A DNA stretch of 36,421 bases, taken from a virus. The translations under genes and the position numbers were made by a program. A model generated the notes under the pieces. That model was not told where the DNA came from. It worked only from the letters and a program-made list of their open reading frames with translations, and searched no databases. How positions within the stretch are numbered: position 1 is the stretch's first letter; every line of letters begins with the position of its first letter. The stretch is taken from the IMG/VR virus record IMGVR_UViG_3300025164_000390, positions 1-36,421 of that record. One strand, given 5' to 3'. Shown here piece by piece: positions 27,113 to 36,147 of this stretch.

Positions 27113-27379
27113 ATGACGCCGATGATCAGCCTGATGGGTTTCGTGTTGTTGGTGTGCGCGGCATTGGTGCTCAGGATCGCCGTCGAGGCGGCCTGGGCGC
27201 TTTTTGATTACAGCCTCTGGCTCAGTGCGCCTTATCCTCGCACGCGGGATGTGTTGGCCGACCAGGTGCGATCCAGGCGCGGGCGCGGCTGGCGCTGGGT
27301 GATGTGGGCTGGGTTGTTTGTCCTGGCCTTTTTGGGATCTGAATTTCTGGCGATGGCGCTATGGACGACGTTCAATTAG
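27113..27379 (+). CDS. Membrane protein with two helices
   Basis: 88 residues. Hydrophobic segments at about 3-25 (ISLMGFVLLVCAALVLRIAV) and 64-85 (WVMWAGLFVLAFLGSEFLAMAL) with a basic loop between them (RSRRGRGWR). The size and two-helix layout resemble class II holins, although it is far from any lysis gene. It begins one base after the previous stop and overlaps the start of the second recombinase by 19 bases. Confidence 0.55.
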   Translation: MTPMISLMGFVLLVCAALVLRIAVEAAWALFDYSLWLSAPYPRTRDVLADQVRSRRGRGWRWVMWAGLFVLAFLGSEFLAMALWTTFN

Positions 27380-28692
27380 GCTCTGAGATTGCTTCGTCGC
27401 AAAAGGCGCTCCTCGCAATGACAGGGCGGCCTGGAACGCAGGTATGGCGGGTCGTGGACGCCGGACCCGAGCCGACAACGAGTGACTTGATCGTCGAGTG
27501 GGGGCGGGTGACGGTGATGTGGCTGGACGGGCGGCGTCCGAACAGCCAAAAGTCGTACTTTCAGGCATGGTGCGAGTTCTTTGGGCGCGGGGTGGACCTG
27601 GGCGCGATCAAGGATCGGATGGAACGCATCCGCGAGATCTTGACTTGCACCTCGCCAATGGATAAGCGCACGTGGCTCAAGCCGTGGAGCGCGACGTCGT
27701 CGGATGCGGAGGCGTGGAAGTTTGAGCTGCGCAACACCGTGATCGCGACGGGCAAGGCGCACGGGGGCGCGGCGCTTTCGGATGCGACGGTGGGCTTGAA
27801 GCTGGCGGCGATGTCATCGTTCTACCAGTTCGCGTGCAAGTTTCCGATCCGGAGGCCGGACGGCTCCGAGGCTCCGCTGTGCGCATTCAATCCCTTTATG
27901 ATCGTCGAGCGTCCTAATGTTGATGCGTTCGACAAGGCGAGATGGCTCACGCCGGAGCAGGTCAAGGCATTCTTATCGGTCATTCCCACGGATACGCTGG
28001 GCGGGCTGCGCGATTGGGCGCTGATGCTGTTTTACGCGACGACCGGTCGCCGCAACAGCGAGGTGCGCCTGCTGCAACGCAAGCATTTTGAGCCGCAGGA
28101 CGATGGGCGGGTGTTTATCCGGCTTGAGGCCGAGATGTGCAAGGGCAAGCGCGGGCAGATGTACGAGCTGCCCGGCGAGGTGTGGACGGCGACGTGCGAG
28201 TATTTGAAGGCGGTGGGGCGGCCCTTCGAAGCGCTCAAGCCGGACGATTACGTCTTTACGGCGCTTTCCAACTGCGTGACCCGGCTGCGGAAGTCGGACG
28301 GGAGCGCGCTGGTGCAGGCGGGGGCGTATCGCTCGAGCGGGTCGCCGCTTTCGGCAAAAGAGATCGGGCGGCTGGTGAAAAAGTACGCGGTGCGCGCGCG
28401 GATCGGCGTGGTGACGATCGAGCGTGTAGACGAGCGCGGGAAGAAGCACACGCGGACGACGAGCACGGTCAAGCCGCACATGCTGCGCCATTCGTATGGT
28501 CGGGCGATGGTGGACGCGGGCGCTCAACTGCCGGTGATCAGCAAATCCATGGGGCACGCTTCGCTGGACATGACCAAGCGGTACACGGACAAGCTCAAGG
28601 AGCGGGAGCAGACCGAGTTCGACGAGCGGGTGATTGACCTCTTTGGCGTGCGCGGGCTGGTGAAAAAGCGCCACAAGCGGTTGGGGACATAA
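27361..28692 (+). CDS. Second tyrosine recombinase
   Basis: 443 residues. The catalytic set is complete: R231 (TTGRRNSE), K261 or K263 (CKGKRG), H373-x-x-R376 (HMLRHSYG), H399 (SMGHASLDM) and Y408. The core-binding domain spans residues about 45-165. It is larger than the integrase at 23418 and unrelated beyond the family fold. Residues about 9-21 (EIASSQKALLAMT) are a translation of a GATTGCTTCG...GCAATGACA repeat, so the true start may be later (for example ATG 27418 or GTG 27508). Its role could be dimer resolution, an inversion switch or a second integration module. The stop codon lies in bipartite element copy 9. Confidence 0.82.
   Translation: MDDVQLGSEIASSQKALLAMTGRPGTQVWRVVDAGPEPTTSDLIVEWGRVTVMWLDGRRPNSQKSYFQAWCEFFGRGVDLGAIKDRMERIREILTCTSPMDKRTWLKPWSATSSDAEAWKFELRNTVIATGKAHGGAALSDATVGLKLAAMSSFYQFACKFPIRRPDGSEAPLCAFNPFMIVERPNVDAFDKARWLTPEQVKAFLSVIPTDTLGGLRDWALMLFYATTGRRNSEVRLLQRKHFEPQDDGRVFIRLEAEMCKGKRGQMYELPGEVWTATCEYLKAVGRPFEALKPDDYVFTALSNCVTRLRKSDGSALVQAGAYRSSGSPLSAKEIGRLVKKYAVRARIGVVTIERVDERGKKHTRTTSTVKPHMLRHSYGRAMVDAGAQLPVISKSMGHASLDMTKRYTDKLKEREQTEFDERVIDLFGVRGLVKKRHKRLGT
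27385..27423. repeat. GATTGCTTCG...GCAATGACA repeat fused to the recombinase start
   Basis: Imperfect inverted repeat with ATTGC/GCAAT arms, related to the ATTCTTCGC family. It is translated in frame at the N-terminus of the second recombinase. Confidence 0.7.
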
Positions 28693-28711
28693 ATCAAATT
28701 ATGTTACCTAT
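28684..28711 (-). repeat. Bipartite dispersed element, copy 9
   Basis: On the - strand ATAGGTAACATAAT, five bases, TTATGTCCCC, with a perfect ACATAA-N6-TTATGT dyad. It contains the TAA stop of the second recombinase. Confidence 0.85.
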
Positions 28712-28717
28712 CTCGCC

Positions 28718-28746
28718 AGAGATGCTTCGCTTCGCTCAGCATGACA
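28718..28746. repeat. ATTCTTCGC-type repeat, copy 4 (GATGC variant)
   Basis: AGATGCTTCGCTTCGCTCAG followed by CATGACA. Both arms carry the same change (ATTCT to ATGCT and AGAAT to AGCAT), so pairing is kept. Confidence 0.65.
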
Positions 28747-28841
28747 TATATGGGCAGGTTGTTAAGGTGTTAGCTGGCATCCCTTCAGCACATATTGACC
28801 GGGGGCGCGGCTGATGTGCGGAATGGGAAGCCGACCGTAGG

Positions 28842-28870
28842 CCCTAAGGGTCTCACACAGACCCTTAGGG
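28842..28870 (+). terminator. Hairpin between early operons, possible terminator
   Basis: Perfect 12-bp stem CCCTAAGGGTCT/AGACCCTTAGGG with loop CACAC, then TTCTATG. The T-run is short, so termination is uncertain. It follows the recombinase gene in a gene-free stretch of about 250 bases (28693-28943). Confidence 0.45.
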
Positions 28871-28943
28871 TTCTATGAATCAAGAGTAGCACAGAAAGGA
28901 CGGCTTGTGACAATGTTGATGGTCAATGCAGCGGAGGTATTCC

Positions 28944-29084
28944 GTGCCTCCGAGTGAAAGATTCGTACACGAGGCGGCCGAGATCGTGTTTTGGCTGTTC
29001 CTTGCTATGACTGCTCTTGCAAGTGGAATCATCGCATTGCTTGGAGGCAGTGATGATGACTCCGGCAAGGGCCGTGGATATTGA
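28944..29084 (+). CDS. Small membrane protein, 46 residues
   Basis: Starts at GTG 28944 with GGAGG 6 bases upstream. Residues 12-33 form one hydrophobic helix (AEIVFWLFLAMTALASGIIALL), followed by an acidic then basic tail (GGSDDDSGKGRGY). It stops 3 bases before the next membrane-protein gene, so the two are probably co-translated. It could be a holin or an inhibitor, by size only. Confidence 0.62.
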   Translation: MPPSERFVHEAAEIVFWLFLAMTALASGIIALLGGSDDDSGKGRGY

Positions 29085-29087
29085 ACG

Positions 29088-29483
29088 ATGTGGAATGATC
29101 TGGATCGCAAGCTGATTTACCTGGCGGCGCTGGCGATGGCGATAGCGTTTGAGCACCACTGGTTTGCGGCTCGCTGGAAGCGGTACGAGCGGGCGCGGTG
29201 GACGATGGGCGTGGCGACGGTGCTGGCGATGGCGCTGCCGCTGGCCATCAGCGGCGTGCTGGACCTGGATACGCTGGCCTGGCTGGTGGCGGCGTTCGGG
29301 GTGGCCGGCGCGGTGACGACGGGGCTATACATCAACGAAGCTGCGGAGGTGAATCGCCGTGCGCGAGAAATTGCGCGCGAGAGCGCGGAAGCTGACAGAT
29401 GGGGAACTAGAGTTTTTGGAGAATCTGACGGCGCTGGCGATCCGGATCGAGCTGAATGCGAAGGCCGTGATGTACGGGCTTGA
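29088..29483 (+). CDS. Membrane protein with three hydrophobic segments
   Basis: 131 residues with helices at about 9-27, 43-62 and 66-84, then a charged tail (EVNRRAREIARESAEADR). It follows the 46-residue membrane gene directly. The C-terminal 40 residues overlap the next ORF by 125 bases, so either this gene ends in an overlap or the real stop context has drifted. A holin-like role is possible but untested, and no endolysin was found near it. Confidence 0.55.
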   Translation: MWNDLDRKLIYLAALAMAIAFEHHWFAARWKRYERARWTMGVATVLAMALPLAISGVLDLDTLAWLVAAFGVAGAVTTGLYINEAAEVNRRAREIARESAEADRWGTRVFGESDGAGDPDRAECEGRDVRA

Positions 29484-29586
29484 TCAGCCGGAGGACGTTG
29501 ACCTGCAGGCCCAGGTGATCACGAGCGCGCAAAGGATCCGGCGTTACGTGATTGATGAAAAGGCGCGCAGGAGAGAGCAGTGTTAA
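29359..29586 (+). CDS. Small helical protein overlapping the previous gene
   Basis: 75 residues from GTG 29359 with GGAGGTGA about 9 bases upstream. It is helical and charged (LRARARKLTDGELEFLENLTALAIRIELNAK). The 125-base overlap with 29088-29483 is unusual, but the ribosome site and codon pattern favour translation. Confidence 0.5.
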   Translation: MREKLRARARKLTDGELEFLENLTALAIRIELNAKAVMYGLDQPEDVDLQAQVITSAQRIRRYVIDEKARRREQC

Positions 29587-29591
29587 AGCGG

Positions 29592-29618
29592 GAGACTGAG
29601 GGGGCGGCCCTCAGTCTC
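29592..29618 (+). promoter_or_regulatory. Strong hairpin upstream of the zinc-finger gene
   Basis: Perfect 11-bp stem GAGACTGAGGG/CCCTCAGTCTC with loop GGCGG. No T-run follows. It lies in the 100-base leader of the gene at 29691, so it may be an attenuator or RNA-stability element. Confidence 0.5.
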
Positions 29619-29690
29619 GTGGATGGTACAAGACCACGGATGGTGGTCGTTGCGTCTGTGATTATAGCACAGATGGAAGGGAAAGGGACA

Positions 29691-30086
29691 ATGAAAGCTA
29701 AACGGGTAACGAGGATCGTGCTGTGGATGACGGAGGAAGAAGCGCAGAGAGCAGTGATAAACGTGACGGATGCGCAGATCGCCATCCATGCAGCGCTGCG
29801 TGAGAATGAGCCGCTGACCATTACAGAACTGATCGAGCAAAATGCGCCACGTCTGCTTGCCGCGCCAGGTGGCGACGGCAAAGGCAGAAAGAAGCACAAG
29901 GTAACCCGGGTCAAGTCGCCCAAGTTGCCCAGGTCGAGCAAGCGGAAGCCGATGAAGAAACCGGCGCCTAAAGAGTGCCCGTTCTGCCACGAGATGAAAA
30001 GCCCGTTTGGGTTCAAGAAGCATTTGGCGTCGTGCGACCGGCTTCACAACATGCAGCCCAAGGCGCTGGTTGAGAATGGAATCTAG
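29691..30086 (+). CDS. Basic protein with a C-terminal zinc finger
   Basis: 131 residues from ATG 29691; the upstream extension translates a hairpin. It has an N-terminal alpha/beta part (RVTRIVLWMTEEEAQRAVINV) with a helical segment (PLTITELIEQNAPRLLA), a very basic middle (about residues 78-100) and a C-terminal finger CPFCHEMKSPFGFKKHLASC. The C-x2-C...H-x4-C spacing fits a single zinc site. It probably binds DNA or RNA. No family is identified. Confidence 0.6.
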   Translation: MKAKRVTRIVLWMTEEEAQRAVINVTDAQIAIHAALRENEPLTITELIEQNAPRLLAAPGGDGKGRKKHKVTRVKSPKLPRSSKRKPMKKPAPKECPFCHEMKSPFGFKKHLASCDRLHNMQPKALVENGI

Positions 30087-30091
30087 TCCTC

Positions 30092-30598
30092 ATGGGAATT
30101 TGTGAAGCTGACCTGGAGCGGCTGCATCGGGTGAACCAGGAGCTTGACCGGCGATGGCGGCAGTGGTGGGTCTTTCGGAGCGCGGTCGAGGGCGGGGATC
30201 CACGCCGGCAGTTGGCGAACGCGGTCGAGTTGCAGGTGATGTGGCGGCTGGAGGAGCGCGGGCACCTGGCCGTGCGCCAGAGGCACAAGGCGCATTTCGA
30301 TCTGAATGTGCAGGGGGTGCGAGTCGAGGTCAAGGTCAGCCGGTGGGATGGCAGCCGGTACGAGGCGAACCTGCACAATAATGAGGCCGACGTGCTGGTG
30401 TTCGGCTGCCTGGACGGGGATGTGCATTTTTTCGTGATGCCGTTCGAGCAGGTGGCCGGGCGGACGGTGATCAAGGTGCCGTGCCACGATCCACGCGATT
30501 ACGCGCGGTGGACTATGTTCTATGAGAATTGGGAGCTGGTTGACGAGCTGGTGCGTGCCGGGCGCAATCCCTGGCAATTGAGTTTGTGGGGAGGCTGA
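30092..30598 (+). CDS. PD-(D/E)XK-like nuclease
   Basis: 168 residues. The catalytic pattern E46 (NAVELQVMWRLEERG), D70 (HFDLNVQGV) and E79-V-K81 (VRVEVKVSRW) is the classical PD-(D/E)XK arrangement, followed by EADVLVFGCLDGDVHFFVMP, a typical core strand pair. Such proteins include small restriction-like and Holliday-junction nucleases; a substrate cannot be assigned. It lies 6 bases past the zinc-finger gene. Confidence 0.65.
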   Translation: MGICEADLERLHRVNQELDRRWRQWWVFRSAVEGGDPRRQLANAVELQVMWRLEERGHLAVRQRHKAHFDLNVQGVRVEVKVSRWDGSRYEANLHNNEADVLVFGCLDGDVHFFVMPFEQVAGRTVIKVPCHDPRDYARWTMFYENWELVDELVRAGRNPWQLSLWGG

Positions 30599-30602
30599 CG
30601 TG

Positions 30603-30719
30603 ATGACTCATTTCATCGGTTACGGCACGCTGGAAGAGTGGGCGGAGGCCGTGTCGATCATGAAATGTGGGCGCGAAAGCAGAGGTGGCAAATGCTTGAT
30701 AGAACGCTCGATTATATGA
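30603..30719 (+). CDS. Small protein, 38 residues
   Basis: ATG 30603 with GGAGG 8 bases upstream. It begins MTHFIGYGTLEEWAEAV. It overlaps the next gene by 28 bases in another frame. The ribosome site supports translation; function is unknown. Confidence 0.42.
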   Translation: MTHFIGYGTLEEWAEAVSIMKCGRESRGGKCLIERSII

Positions 30720-31387
30720 AATATCGCTGGTACATGCTGTGCGCTGAGGTCTGGCTGGCATTGCAGCGCGATCGAGACCTGGCGATTGCCGAGACGCTGT
30801 TCCACGCCAACCGCTATGCCATGCAGCACAAGCACAGCGCGCAGGCAAGCCGCATCTATACGCTCAAGAATCACATCATCGCGTACTTTTACCAACATTA
30901 CTGTTCGTCTGTGACGATCTCACGCCAGTCATTCGAGTGCTGGTCGTGCGGCGGGACGGGTTGGTATGACACAGACCGCGAGTGCTGGAAGTGCGGCGGG
31001 ACGGGCGTTTACCGCTCGACGCTGCTCTACCGCTTCGTGTTCAATATCGGCAGTCAATCCTTTGTGTGGCACCAGCCCAAGGCGCTCATGATGTTCCCCG
31101 TGACGCTGACCACGGACGACGTGGGCAGGTACGATGAGCGGCAAAGCCAGCCCGTGCCTGGCCGTTTCAATCCCGATGTGGCGATTGCGCGCATGGCGGC
31201 TTACGCACCGGAGATCATTTATCACATGATGCCGTCGTTGATGCAGGCGATCCGGTGTGACGTGTTCGATTTGCCCATCAGCCTGAGAGGCTGGTGGAGC
31301 GCATTTAGTTTTGATTGGGGATACCGCCTGTCACATCGTGGTCAATCGCCCTATCGAGATGACGACGACGAAATGTCAGGGCTATAG
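30692..31387 (+). CDS. Protein with two CxxCGGTG zinc-ribbon motifs
   Basis: 231 residues from ATG 30692, preceded by AGAGGTGG. A helical N-terminal 75 residues is followed by a paired DnaJ-like motif, C83-W-S-C86-GGTG and C98-W-K-C101-GGTG, which should bind one zinc. The remaining 120 residues are mixed. DnaJ-type knuckles usually hold partner proteins or nucleic acid. No family is recognised. Confidence 0.62.
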   Translation: MLDRTLDYMKYRWYMLCAEVWLALQRDRDLAIAETLFHANRYAMQHKHSAQASRIYTLKNHIIAYFYQHYCSSVTISRQSFECWSCGGTGWYDTDRECWKCGGTGVYRSTLLYRFVFNIGSQSFVWHQPKALMMFPVTLTTDDVGRYDERQSQPVPGRFNPDVAIARMAAYAPEIIYHMMPSLMQAIRCDVFDLPISLRGWWSAFSFDWGYRLSHRGQSPYRDDDDEMSGL

Positions 31388-31396
31388 GATGATTAC

Positions 31397-31576
31397 ATGG
31401 AGAATCCAACTGCGACTGTTCTATGGCAACGTGGTATACGCCTACAGGTCATTCAGGATCAACTCGACGCGGAGAGAATTACAAAAGAAGAAGCACTCGA
31501 ACTCTTGGCGCTACCGTTGTCGCCTGGAAAAGGCGATCCGATAGATGATTCGCAATTATTGATTGTTCGCCAATGA
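31397..31576 (+). CDS. Small protein, 59 residues
   Basis: ATG 31397 with AGGA 7 bases upstream, stop TGA shared with the ATG of the helicase frame (ATGA at 31573). It begins MENPTATVLWQRGIRLQV and has a helix (AERITKEEALELLAL). Compact position and frame suggest a real gene. No function is inferred. Confidence 0.58.
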   Translation: MENPTATVLWQRGIRLQVIQDQLDAERITKEEALELLALPLSPGKGDPIDDSQLLIVRQ

Positions 31577-33105
31577 CTGGATTCTCGCCTTCGCGGGACA
31601 TAAACAGGATTACTTTACCTATGCCGAACCAGGTCAAGCAGGGTCTTGAAGTGGTTGTCATGGCGCCACATAGCATCGAGGCGGAGGAGTCGGTGCTTGG
31701 GTCGGTGTTGATTGATCCGGCGGTGCTGCGCGACGTAGGCAAGATGCTGAGTGTGTCTGACTTTTTCATCATCAAGAATGGCTGGGTATTTGACGCGATG
31801 CTGGACATTGCAGCGGGTGGCGAGCCGGTGGATTTTCTAACGCTGTGCAACAAGCTGGAGATGCGCGGCCAACTGGCCGAGGTGGGCGGGGCGGCGTACA
31901 TCAGCCACTTGATCAATGTGGTGCCGACGGCGATCCACGCGGATGGATACGCGCGGATCGTCAAGGAAAAGTCGGTGCGCCGGCGGGGACTGGGCCTGGC
32001 TTCGGACCTGGCGGAGCGGATGTATGACGAGACGGCTTCTCCCTTCATCGGGCTGGACCACTTTCACAACCGGGCCAAAGCAATGCGAGTGAGTGAGGCG
32101 GCGCGGATGGGCGGGGAGATCCCGGTCATTTCGGCGGATGAGATTTTGAGGGCCGAGTATCCAGCGCCGTACCTTGCCGTGGAGGGGATGCTGACGAGCG
32201 GGATGGCGATGCTGGGGGCGAAGGCGAAGCAGCACAAATCGTGGATGGCGCTGCAATTGTTGTGCGCGATCTCGTCGCCGAGCGGGTATTTCATGGGCCG
32301 GAAGCTGGAGCACGGGCGGGTGCTGTACGTGACGCTCGAGCTGACGCTGCGGGAATTGAAGAATCGGATGACGGCGCAAAGCTGGCCGGGCCAGTTGCCG
32401 TTCGACGTGATCACGCCCGAGACGTATCAGGAACGCCTCGGGGATATTTCCAGGTCGGGAGCGGACACGCTGTGCAAGTTGATGCTGGATAGTGATTACC
32501 GCATGGCGGTGATCGACCCGTTCAACCTGGCGATGGCGTATGGCAACACGGATATGTATGACCTGGTGGCGATGACGGAGGCGATGGCGCGGCTGCAGCG
32601 CTTTGGGGTGGAGCACGACCGGGTGATCCTGTTCGTGGTGCATTATCCGAAGGAATTGCGCGAGGCGCACGATCCATTTGCGGACATGATGGGCACGATC
32701 GGGATCGGGAACTCGGCGGGGACGGCGTGGGGCATTTACCGCGAGCGCGGCCAGCAGATGGCGGAAATGGTTATCTCGGGCCGGAATCTGCCGGAGGAGT
32801 TGTGCCTGGCGGTGCGGTTCGACCGGCAGACGTGCACGTGGGTGTACGAGGGCAAGGCGACGGACCTGGTGATGACGGAGCAGCGGGTGGAGATCTTGCG
32901 GGTGCTGGCGCTGAATGGGCCGCAGACGCACAAGCAGATCGCGGAGCTGGTGGGGCAGAACGGGGGGAACGTGTCCCGGCGCATCAGCGACTTGATGCGC
33001 GAGGAGATGATCGAGGAGGTCACCAGCGGGACACGCAGGCAATTTAATCTGACAGACGATGGCAAGCTCAGGCTGGAGGAGTTTGACCGGAGCAATCGAA
33101 AGTAG
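31573..33105 (+). CDS. Replicative helicase chimera: DnaB N-domain, RecA-like ATPase, winged helix
   Basis: 510 residues. Residues about 31-130 are the DnaB N-terminal domain (PHSIEAEESVLGSVLIDPAV, EVGGAAYISHLINVVPTA). The central ATPase is of the RepA/AAA_25 type, with a degenerate Walker A GAKAKQHKS (215-223) and Walker B MAVIDPF (311-317), and includes VLYVTLELTLRELKNRM. The last 75 residues form a winged helix (LALNGPQTHKQIAELVGQNG). It probably unwinds the phage origin, which lies just downstream. The start is uncertain: ATG 31573, 31621 or 31660. A bipartite element overlaps the first of these regions. Confidence 0.78.
   Translation: MTGFSPSRDINRITLPMPNQVKQGLEVVVMAPHSIEAEESVLGSVLIDPAVLRDVGKMLSVSDFFIIKNGWVFDAMLDIAAGGEPVDFLTLCNKLEMRGQLAEVGGAAYISHLINVVPTAIHADGYARIVKEKSVRRRGLGLASDLAERMYDETASPFIGLDHFHNRAKAMRVSEAARMGGEIPVISADEILRAEYPAPYLAVEGMLTSGMAMLGAKAKQHKSWMALQLLCAISSPSGYFMGRKLEHGRVLYVTLELTLRELKNRMTAQSWPGQLPFDVITPETYQERLGDISRSGADTLCKLMLDSDYRMAVIDPFNLAMAYGNTDMYDLVAMTEAMARLQRFGVEHDRVILFVVHYPKELREAHDPFADMMGTIGIGNSAGTAWGIYRERGQQMAEMVISGRNLPEELCLAVRFDRQTCTWVYEGKATDLVMTEQRVEILRVLALNGPQTHKQIAELVGQNGGNVSRRISDLMREEMIEEVTSGTRRQFNLTDDGKLRLEEFDRSNRK
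31595..31622 (-). repeat. Bipartite dispersed element, copy 10
   Basis: On the - strand ATAGGTAAAGTAAT, five bases, TTATGTCCC. It lies at the helicase start, where its CTAT end overlaps the ATG 31621 candidate. Confidence 0.85.
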
Positions 33106-33112
33106 AGTCAGG

Positions 33113-33502
33113 ATGATAGTCAACATCAGGTGTGCGAGATGTAAGTCACCGTTGGAGATACGCGGTGGCTCTTGGATGCAGAATGTTTCGGAATTGGAGT
33201 TTGAGGTCTTGCCATGCGAGAACTGCATCGAATTGGCAATAGAGAAATCAGCGGAGGGCCGCCCAACTCCCGTTTCAGATGACGCGGACAATGACGATCT
33301 AACTGAATCGGAATTATCGAACGATGAGCTGGATGACCCACGCATGGATGAATTTGGACGTTATGTTGTTGTAGGTTGTTGTAGGTTGTTGTACCCTGTT
33401 GTAGGTGTTGTAGGTTGTTGTAGGGTGTGGATAACTCGTGGGGGGGCCTTTGCCCCTACAACACCTACAACAAATTTCAAAAAGTTATGTACTAATCAAT
33501 GA
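33113..33502 (+). CDS. Zinc-ribbon protein running into the iterons
   Basis: 129 residues from ATG 33113. A four-cysteine ribbon is visible (IRCARC near residue 7 and PCENC near 37), then an acidic segment (VSDDADNDDLTESELSNDEL). From about residue 86 on (VVVGCCRLLYPVVGVVGCCR) the protein merely translates the 10-bp iterons, so the end is probably not functional and the gene may really finish near 33370. It resembles small phage replication or transcription accessory proteins. The start site is weak (CAGG). Confidence 0.5.
   Translation: MIVNIRCARCKSPLEIRGGSWMQNVSELEFEVLPCENCIELAIEKSAEGRPTPVSDDADNDDLTESELSNDELDDPRMDEFGRYVVVGCCRLLYPVVGVVGCCRVWITRGGAFAPTTPTTNFKKLCTNQ
33367..33425 (+). repeat. 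Six direct iterons of about 10 bp (TGTTGTAGGT)
   Basis: Units start at 33367, 33377, 33387, 33397, 33406 and 33416; five end in AGG and one is TGTTGTACCC. The one-turn period and the DnaA box right after them are typical of an origin. Confidence 0.85.
33426..33434 (-). promoter_or_regulatory. DnaA box
   Basis: TGTGGATAA, the exact complement of the TTATCCACA consensus. It is directly adjacent to the last iteron. Confidence 0.8.
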
Positions 33503-33571
33503 TGATGCGGATTGTACCCATTTTAACCGATCTACAACTCGATCTACAACAGGGTACAACAGGGTACAACA
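33455..33571 (-). repeat. Inverted iterons (CTACAACA/GTACAACA)
   Basis: CCTACAACA twice in tandem (33455 and 33464), then CGATCTACAACT/A (33528 and 33540) and GGGTACAACA twice (33552 and 33562). They are complementary to the 33367-33425 units, including the TGTTGTACCC variant. Confidence 0.78.
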
Positions 33572-33645
33572 ATATAACTGGATTAGGAATTGTAAAGTTA
33601 TTAGAGGCAAGCAAAACGGATGAGTAGGAAGATACGGAGGTATAA

Positions 33646-33897
33646 ATGCCAGCAGGACCATTGAAACGTATCGGACAATTTCTGCGTGAGGCGACGACTT
33701 GTCCAGTGTGTGGCAGGTCAAAAATGGTGATGGCTACCGGATGGCGCGGGCATGGAACTGGTCAGCATGGATCGGCTCATTATGATGCTACCAGCCATGA
33801 GCCAATCAGCACAGAAACACACTGCACTTGTCCAGGCGGGCCATGTGATGTTGCCGGACTCTTGAAATCGCAGGCGGCAAGCGAAACGGCTGAGTAG
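33646..33897 (+). CDS. Small Cys-rich protein
   Basis: 83 residues with a strong GGAGGT site 7 bases before the ATG. CPVCGRS near residue 19 and CTCPGGPC near residue 60 supply up to five Cys, plus several His (HGTGQHGSAH), so it is a probable zinc binder. It is a translated gene by codon use and ribosome site; function is unknown. Confidence 0.6.
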   Translation: MPAGPLKRIGQFLREATTCPVCGRSKMVMATGWRGHGTGQHGSAHYDATSHEPISTETHCTCPGGPCDVAGLLKSQAASETAE

Positions 33898-33918
33898 GCA
33901 GATGAGGTAACAGTCCAC

Positions 33919-34137
33919 GTGAGTATTGAACGTCGTACAACGAATCCAGGCAGGCGCGAACGAGAGGCTGGAAAACGCCATAGGCGTGCCCGTTACTGGG
34001 ATTCCAGGATGGGAGCGGGGGCGACACCGTTGAAGCTCGGGCGCAAACACGCTGGTCGTCACGCTGGTCGTTGGTTCAAGAAAAGTCTGGCTGTGGCCGA
34101 TGCGCTGATTACAGCGGATGCGCTGAGTACAGCGTAG
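33919..34137 (+). CDS. Small basic protein with a repeat-coded C-terminus
   Basis: 72 residues from GTG 33919, Arg/Lys-rich. Its last 12 residues (ADALITADALSTA) translate two GTAC hairpins. GAGG lies about 10 bases upstream. The repeat-derived end lowers confidence that the full frame is functional. Confidence 0.38.
   Translation: MSIERRTTNPGRREREAGKRHRRARYWDSRMGAGATPLKLGRKHAGRHAGRWFKKSLAVADALITADALSTA
34103..34134. repeat. Two GTAC hairpins
   Basis: CGCTGATTACAGCG (34103-34116, loop variant ATTA) and CGCTGAGTACAGCG (34121-34134). They lie at the end of the small basic gene and before the HerA-like gene. Confidence 0.75.
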
Positions 34138-34150
34138 GGCCGAAACGCCG

Positions 34151-34192
34151 GGGGGGAGCGTGCGCTGGAGTGTCGCTCGTAGGTCTCCCCCC
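34151..34192. other. G/C stem upstream of the HerA-like gene
   Basis: 8-bp stem GGGGGGAG/CTCCCCCC with a 26-base loop in the leader of the gene at 34218. It could influence translation; weak evidence. Confidence 0.3.
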
Positions 34193-34217
34193 ACGCTTGC
34201 TGCATGTAGGTTAGATT

Positions 34218-35921
34218 ATGGTTAAATCGCAGACGTTCAGCATTGGCAAAGTGGCGGATTCGGGTGCTGTGCCACTCCGGGTTGACTTGCCGCGCCTGGT
34301 GGATACGCGGATGCTGATCCAGGCGAACAGCGGCGGCGGCAAGAGTTGGCTGCTGCGCCTGATGGCCGAGCAGGTGGCCGACAAGGTGCAGATCATTCTG
34401 CTGGACCCGGAGGGGGAGTTTGCGACGCTGCGCGAAAAGATTGACATCGCGCTGGTGGGCCAGGGCGGGGAGATCGCTGCGGACGTGCGATCGGCCGCGC
34501 TGCTGGCACGCAAGGTGATCGAGAAGCGCATCTCGGTGATCGTGGACTTGTACGATTTGAAGCTGCCTGACCGGCGGCGGTACGTGCGGCTGTTTCTGGA
34601 GGCGTTGATGAGCGTGCCGCGCGCGCAATGGCACCAGGTGCTCGTCATCCTGGACGAGGCGCACATCTTTGCGCCTGAAAAGTCGGCCGGGGAGTCGGAG
34701 GCGACGAGCGCCGTGATCTCGCTGATGTCGCAGGGGCGCAAGCGAGGTTTCGCGGGGATTATCTCGACGCAGCGGCTGAGCAAGCTGCACAAGGACGTGG
34801 CGGCGGAGACGAATAATGTGGTCATCGGGCGCACGTGGCTGGACGTGGATCAGCAGCGGGCGGGGGATCTGCTGGGGATGAACAAGGCGGATCGGCAGGC
34901 ATTGCGGGACCTGGCGCCGGGCGAGTTTTTTGCGTTCGGGCCGTCGCTGAGCGTGGCGGGCGTGGTTCGATTCAGGTCTGATCAGGTGGCGACGACGCAC
35001 CCGAAGGCGGGCGAACGGCACACGATGGAAGTGCCGGAATCGTCGGCGGCAATTCGGGAGATTGTGGCGCAGATCGGCGACTTGCCGAAGCAGGCCGCGG
35101 AGGAGGCGCATACGCTGGCGGACGCTCAGCGCAGGATCGCAGAGCTGGAGCGGCAGATCAGGGCGCGGCCCATCCAGGTGGAACAGAAGGTTGAGACGCG
35201 CGTGGAGCGAGTAGAGGTTCCCGTGCTGAAGAATGACGAGGCGGGCAAGCTGCTGAATACGGCGCGGGATCTGTCCGAGCTGGGCGCTCAACTGGCGTCT
35301 CTCTCGTCCGAGATCCGGAAGGCGGTAGACGACGCGGCGCGGATGAGGACGATGCCGGTGCGTGCGATTGCGACGGTGGCGCCGCCTCGAGCGGCCGGCG
35401 GCGCGGCGCGCCTTCGACCGGCGAGCGAGGCAGGGGAGATAAGAGATATTATATTACGCTCCGGCGAGCGCAAGATGCTGCAGGCATTGGCAGCACGTTA
35501 TCCGGCCCGGTATACGCGCTCGCAGTTGGGGACGCTGGCAGGTTTCACGCCGAGCGGGGGGACGTTCGGGAATTATTTTGGAACGCTGAAGCGGATGGAG
35601 TTCCTCGTCGAAGCGGGGCGGGACGTGGAGATCACGCAGGCGGGGCTGGATTACCTGGGCGCGGACGTGCCGCCGAGGCCGGAGACGACGGGCGAGCTGT
35701 TGGCGATGTGGAAGGGGGCGCTGCGTGAGGGGGAGCGCAAGATGCTCGACGAGCTCGTGGAGGTATACCCAGATGGGCTATCGTTCGAGGAGTTGGGGGA
35801 GCGGACGGGGTTCACGGCGAGCGGGGGCACGTTCGGGAATTACCTGGGGACGCTGAGGCGGAACGGGCTGGTCGAGACGAGCGGCCGGCAGGCGAAGGCC
35901 AGCGCGACGCTGTTTGTTTAG
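34218..35921 (+). CDS. HerA-like ATPase with duplicated C-terminal winged helix
   Basis: 567 residues. The ATPase domain has Walker A NSGGGKS (37-43), the DPEGEF motif (63-68) typical of HerA/FtsK-like pumps, Walker B VILDEAHIF (143-151) and the sensor ISTQRL. A coiled-coil segment (about 300-335) precedes two copies of a wHTH unit: GERKMLQALAARYPARYTRS near residue 419 and GERKMLDELVEVYPDGLSFE near residue 505, each ending in SGGTFGNY(F/L)GTL. HerA proteins move DNA with nucleases or in defence complexes; the partner here is not evident. A bipartite element is embedded in frame near residue 410. Confidence 0.75.
   Translation: MVKSQTFSIGKVADSGAVPLRVDLPRLVDTRMLIQANSGGGKSWLLRLMAEQVADKVQIILLDPEGEFATLREKIDIALVGQGGEIAADVRSAALLARKVIEKRISVIVDLYDLKLPDRRRYVRLFLEALMSVPRAQWHQVLVILDEAHIFAPEKSAGESEATSAVISLMSQGRKRGFAGIISTQRLSKLHKDVAAETNNVVIGRTWLDVDQQRAGDLLGMNKADRQALRDLAPGEFFAFGPSLSVAGVVRFRSDQVATTHPKAGERHTMEVPESSAAIREIVAQIGDLPKQAAEEAHTLADAQRRIAELERQIRARPIQVEQKVETRVERVEVPVLKNDEAGKLLNTARDLSELGAQLASLSSEIRKAVDDAARMRTMPVRAIATVAPPRAAGGAARLRPASEAGEIRDIILRSGERKMLQALAARYPARYTRSQLGTLAGFTPSGGTFGNYFGTLKRMEFLVEAGRDVEITQAGLDYLGADVPPRPETTGELLAMWKGALREGERKMLDELVEVYPDGLSFEELGERTGFTASGGTFGNYLGTLRRNGLVETSGRQAKASATLFV
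35432..35456 (-). repeat. Bipartite dispersed element, copy 11, inside the HerA-like gene
   Basis: On the - strand GCGTAATATAAT, five bases, TTATCTCCC. In frame, encoding EIRDIILRS. Confidence 0.65.
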
Positions 35922-35943
35922 TTGGGTCACTTACTCAAAAGCT

Positions 35944-36147
35944 ATGAACACAAATGGGATTCGTGTAAAACCGGAGCCATATTGTCCAAAGTGTGGGGCC
36001 AAGATGGTGTTACGTCGCCCAAAGAGTAATCAACGTTGGCATCCGTTTTGGGGTTGCCCGGATTGGCCTGATTGTGATGGGAAGCGCCAAATCAATGACG
36101 ACGGTTTGCCCGAACAGGATGATGAAGAATTGGAAAGCGCGGCCTAA
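35944..36147 (+). CDS. Topoisomerase-type zinc-ribbon protein
   Basis: 67 residues from ATG 35944. The pattern CPKCGAKMVLRRPKSNQ...FWGCPDWPDC is that of the C4 zinc ribbon at the end of bacterial topoisomerase I, here as a stand-alone protein. Its acidic tail (EQDDEELESAA) follows. It probably binds single-stranded DNA. It lies between the HerA-like and ParB genes. The start is chosen for family length; the SD is weak. Confidence 0.65.
   Translation: MNTNGIRVKPEPYCPKCGAKMVLRRPKSNQRWHPFWGCPDWPDCDGKRQINDDGLPEQDDEELESAA

Follow-up and report, generated by a model that had tools for sequence, protein, structure and literature searches.

The cluster of short repeats at positions 33367-33571 of the window (the whole 36,421-nucleotide virus record IMGVR_UViG_3300025164_000390) is probably a phage replication origin, with the product of the neighboring gene (31573-33105, + strand) serving as initiator and helicase in one protein. 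The record possesses genes for terminase, portal, minor head, scaffold, major head and tape-measure proteins. The iteron-type origin proposed for this site in a preliminary description has good support, chiefly from the comparable arrays that relatives of the neighboring helicase carry at the same place, though the dependence on host DnaA that had been attached to it is not supported (see below).

The repeat cluster itself is real, with boundaries exactly as first given. The heptamer TGTTGTA occurs in it eleven times without a mismatch, first in six forward and then in five inverted copies. The first set (33367-33422, + strand) has starts at 33367, 33377, 33387, 33397, 33406 and 33416, i.e. 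a start-to-start spacing of 10, 10, 10, 9 and 10 bp. The second set, on the - strand, opens with two inverted copies (33457-33472, starts 33457 and 33466) and resumes at 33533-33571 with a one-mismatch copy (33533-33539) followed by exact inverted copies at 33545, 33555 and 33565. A composition scan of the window placed its most AT-rich 60-mer within the array (33466-33525), a candidate melting region. The AT-rich stretch reported earlier is thereby borne out, as are the inverted copies beyond it (three exact and one degenerate, with two more before). The repeat unit had been described as roughly 10 bp, but the conserved core is 7 bp, and TGTTGTAGGT is exact in only three of the six forward units. 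The window has 15 copies of TGTTGTA in total, 11 of them in the array, against an expectation of 1.28 from dinucleotide shuffles (maximum 4 in 100 shuffles). The array region also folds as a single strand far better than its shuffles (z -6.5), a value for which the inverted copies alone can account. The GC skew is positive along the whole window with no inflection at 33.4 kb, and hence speaks neither for nor against the site. Searches with the array DNA against phage records returned no match. A small cysteine-containing open frame (33113-33502, + strand), with no match in Pfam or PHROGs, runs through the first iteron set in its 3' part. Further small cysteine-rich frames occur near the array at 33646-33897 and 35914-36147, the latter matching a topoisomerase-type zinc ribbon (PF01396, E 4.4e-9). 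A 28-bp direct repeat, with 89% identical copies 270 bp apart, is found just before the former of these frames (33606-33633) and at its 3' end (33876-33903).

The array lies next to a helicase gene, as originally described, and begins 261 bp past its stop with the small frame in between, which is farther than in most relatives. The 510-residue product combines a DnaB N-terminal domain (residues 31-132, 31663-31968; PF00772, E 2.9e-27), a RecA-type ATPase domain of the AAA_25 family (residues 192-361, 32146-32655; PF13481, E 6.1e-14, and alignments) and a C-terminal winged helix (residues 429-490, 32857-33042; PF13412 or HTH_24, E 8.7e-8, and alignment with relatives), all on the + strand; the last of these is the proposed iteron-binding domain. 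It is not a canonical DnaB, which would have the DnaB N-terminal domain and the DnaB C-terminal RecA domain over its full length: its N-terminal domain matches, but its ATPase is AAA_25, it bears an extra winged helix, and PDB sequence matches to DnaB cover only residues 25-182. Pfam searches recovered no DUF927 or D5/Primase_Cterm helicase domain in it. Its Walker A motif is deviant, with HKS in place of GKS, so that the lysine and serine are kept but some caution is due regarding its predicted ATPase activity; one relative (L345) shows RKS at this position. A medium-quality structure model (mean pLDDT 55, with residues 1-205 below 50 and the winged helix at about 80-87) can be used for no more than the ATPase core and the winged helix, the latter modeled with a helix-helix-helix-wing order; an earlier model from a two-sequence alignment (mean pLDDT 35) was useless. 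A fold search with the model ranked DnaB structures first, but as the N-terminal half of the model is of low confidence, the result contributes little that the sequence match does not already show.

Relatives were chosen by the ATPase/winged-helix protein alone, ignoring repeats, and comprise 14 phage contigs and one plasmid. The ATPase-winged-helix part, used as query against annotated phages and plasmids, retrieved four gut-phage records together with pATHE01, a plasmid of Caldicellulosiruptor bescii, and an IMG/VR scan with one gut-phage relative yielded eleven further loci; the gut-phage record L346 was excluded on account of its truncated frame. A scan with the window protein alone found no close relative, and the comparison draws on proteins 20-26% identical to it. 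When the stretch between the end of the protein match and a point 520 bp past the stop was scored, a heptamer repeated beyond shuffles was observed in 12 of the 15 relatives (0-2 of 100 shuffles reach it), and only 1 of about 736 segments elsewhere in the loci with a significant array and in the window was equally dense. As L347, L348 and L351 share a heptamer and are closely related, the 12 loci amount to approximately ten independent cases. No significant array was detected in L344, L352 and L353, that of L352 being a decayed form of the L350 array. The arrays are situated at the 3' end of the helicase gene, either inside the coding tail after the winged helix or just past the stop, usually with heptamers in both orientations. 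The heptamers are GGTAACA (8-9 copies, three loci), CGTAACG (12 copies), CCCTTAC, AGTGAGG, CGTCACA, CTCACTC, TGTCACA, ATCATTG and AGGGACG, along with GAGTGAA in pATHE01. The window and these 12 relatives thus fit a common plan of a RecA-type ATPase, a C-terminal winged helix and a 3' heptamer array. The winged helix can be aligned across the window protein, pATHE01, L200 and the IMG/VR relatives; near-identical winged helices go with a common heptamer, and other lineages differ. The N-terminal part is variable, with mostly weak matches to Toprim or CHC2-like domains in L345, L348, L349 and L200, a Prim-Pol domain in pATHE01, the DnaB N-terminal domain in the window protein and no match in L350 and L353.

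These observations bear on which protein reads the repeats. The preliminary description had placed an exact DnaA box in the array and taken it to imply host DnaA use. Such a box (TTATCCACA) is indeed present at 33426-33434 (- strand), between the two iteron sets and beside the AT-rich stretch, as would suit a DnaA-dependent theta origin, in which DnaA opens the AT-rich stretch and a separate plasmid-type Rep binds the iterons. However, the single match to TTWTNCACA in the 36.4 kb window compares with 0.98 expected by chance, none of 25 related arrays has the box, unlike the conserved boxes of DnaA-dependent iteron plasmid origins, and its density is 0.13 per kb in arrays (this one included) versus 0.11 elsewhere. 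The box was therefore rejected as a conserved origin component. It may be a chance occurrence or a local addition, probably not part of the conserved module, and alone does not imply use of host DnaA. The ten ORFs scanned around the array (27361-36147) gave no match in Pfam or PHROGs to a plasmid-family iteron-binding Rep, and the helicase has a DNA-binding domain of its own. On these grounds a DnaA-dependent theta origin is unlikely, and the repeats are most likely recognized by the helicase itself and not by DnaA. The iteron-binding protein for which the preliminary description proposed to look is likely to be the helicase, through its C-terminal winged helix, and not a separate protein.

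Operators and centromere-like sites, at which a regulator would repress the replication operon or partition the prophage, also typically have inverted sites in multiple copies, and in mycobacteriophages parS repeats may directly follow repA (PMC7157519). Nevertheless, no ParA/ParB gene was recognized among the window genes scanned, and across lineages the arrays follow helicase genes, often at the 3' end or in the coding tail, where an operator is less expected; such a role is consequently quite improbable. Still less probable is a minisatellite or repetitive coding DNA with no replication function. The first half of the array does overlap an open frame, and 9-bp coding repeats make up many of the TGTTGTA repeats seen in virus contigs, but the array shows both orientations and an AT-rich spacer. 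Moreover, the arrays of the relatives do not look like the variable minisatellite DNA considered at the outset: they keep their site 3' of the helicase, and each element has one uniform heptamer that changes from lineage to lineage. Finally, although there is a tyrosine integrase gene at 27361-28692 and several genomic TGTTGTA arrays adjoin integrase genes, arm-type integrase binding sites near an attachment site can hardly explain an array that adjoins the helicase and is separated from the integrase by 4.7 kb, when pATHE01, which has no annotated integrase, carries an array tied to its helicase.

The best reading of the above comparisons is that this self-contained origin-plus-initiator module would work like the origins of staphylococcal pathogenicity islands (SaPIs) and other PICIs while falling outside their helicase family. 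In SaPI and Cch2 helicases the C-terminal domain binds iterons located 3' of their own gene (PMC7581432), and in PICI origins an AT-rich region is invariably enclosed by two sets of iterons, directly 3' of rep (PMC6092414). These rep-ori modules and the SCCmec Cch2, whose helicases are proposed to self-load, resemble the window in possessing iterons around an AT-rich region 3' of the helicase gene, here with the gene ending at 33105 and the array at 33367-33571. In the window, too, two sets flank the AT-rich region, although inverted copies occur on both sides of it, making the layout close but not identical. The C-terminal winged helix of the window protein would be the counterpart of their iteron-binding domain, binding in this case being a prediction. 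The differences lie in the helicase, which is DUF927 (Cch, SaPIbov1) or D5/Primase_Cterm (Cch2, SaPI5) in those systems as against AAA_25 with a DnaB N-terminal domain in the window, and in the genomic setting, which is a satellite or cassette in the former and a contig with phage structural genes in the latter. With these genes the window does not qualify as a PICI, a satellite that lacks a full structural set of its own. The lambda O origin similarly has iterons by an AT-rich stretch, placed within or alongside the gene for the initiator, but lambda O only binds the iterons, and the replication helicase is the host DnaB delivered by lambda P; in the window the putative binding domain and the helicase form one protein. 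The AAA ATPase of pATHE01 (WP_012660750.1) is 27% identical to the window protein over the ATPase and winged helix and has an 11-copy array after the latter, but differs in having an N-terminal Prim-Pol rather than a DnaB domain and in the location of the array within the gene. The array of this plasmid (L339:6381-6553) is translated as a SIH repeat directly following the winged helix; no experimental definition of the pATHE01 origin was found in the accessible literature. ORF904 of the Sulfolobus plasmid pRN1 is likewise a primase/helicase with a C-terminal winged helix and an origin directly downstream of the gene (PMC4234260), but its helicase belongs to superfamily 3, its primase is of the archaeo-eukaryotic type and its origin is a large stem-loop instead of iterons.

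That the site acts as an origin, and that the helicase binds the iterons and loads itself, are inferences. Each subunit would use its C-terminal winged helix to bind one TGTTGTA heptamer, and two inverted sets of about six heptamers would gather two hexamers in opposed orientation; by analogy with the PICI origins, a total of six heptamers in the forward and six in the inverted direction (one of them degenerate) would dock the two hexamers head to head. This stoichiometry is not general, as some relatives have four or five copies. The AT-rich stretch would then melt and the RecA-type rings would load and unwind, with host DnaA being accessory at most. In DnaB the N-terminal domain contacts DnaG, and this domain in the window protein might recruit the host DnaG primase in place of the primase domain of several relatives. 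More tentatively, and with rather less confidence than the assignment of the origin, the window protein could represent a one-polypeptide initiator of tailed phages that finds the origin, self-loads and recruits the host primase, as part of a wide group in which winged helices and heptamers change together. No report pairing an AAA_25-winged-helix gene with such an array was found in the literature on iterons, origins and helicases (with few subscription journals covered). Phage-inducible chromosomal islands have been described as the only elements with this origin layout, which appears here in phage contigs and a plasmid, with a different helicase fold. If so, a search 3' of AAA_25-winged-helix genes could locate origins of uncultured phages by sequence alone. 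Winged helices and heptamers that vary in pairs provide a natural data set for a DNA-recognition code, which could be read from sequence were the one-polypeptide reading true. The exchange of a primase for a DnaB domain, if functional, would offer a compact test of a helicase working without DnaA and a loader, and the modules could yield small portable replicons for poorly tractable hosts.

Beyond the AAA_25 relatives, virus contigs and the genomes of several phyla were observed to have non-coding TGTTGTA arrays in two orientations 3' of VapE, DUF927, DUF5906, DUF6371, DUF3987 and AAA_25 genes; in each of ten cellular genomes checked the pattern is present at a single place. Arrays directly 3' of VapE, DUF927, DUF5906/DUF6371 and DUF3987 primase-helicase genes occur in L191, L201, L211, L222, L260, L062, L139, L129, L040 and L091. 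High-copy non-coding TGTTGTA loci are enriched in helicase neighbors (8 of 16 versus 3 of 75, hand-classified; Fisher p 2e-5). As these wider loci were found by searching for the heptamer itself, ascertainment weakens the idea of a universal TGTTGTA iteron across unrelated helicases, and the sharing may in part be coincidental; a control heptamer gave about two array-like loci in 15 hits. The loci recovered by the control heptamer are L306:12452-12600 and L307:977-1100, with GTATTGT and TGTTACA units. Among 13 VapE loci taken regardless of motif there was one TGTTGTA array, in addition to one clear and one possible array of other sequence. An array recovered without a motif search comprises ten copies of GTGATAG in both orientations at L321:2392-2585, just downstream of a VapE gene. 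The layout with an array 3' of a helicase is general, but these data do not establish that the heptamers of different helicase families share an ancestor. A 12-copy TGTTGTA array (L127:2161-2351) also lies beside a small gene (L127:1725-2120) coding for a DnaA C-terminal helix-turn-helix domain (PF08299, E 1.5e-20), which might be another iteron reader.

On the 3' side of the array in the window is a gene for a HerA/DUF87 ATPase, which was rejected as its partner, given that a 55% identical homolog in the virus contig L005 has no array 5' of it. Elsewhere in the window the terminase large subunit occupies two adjacent frames (857-1810 and 1812-2597), which could reflect a frameshift, an error in sequencing or a gene that is truly split, and these match consecutive parts of phrog_38 (positions 287-496 and 484-715).
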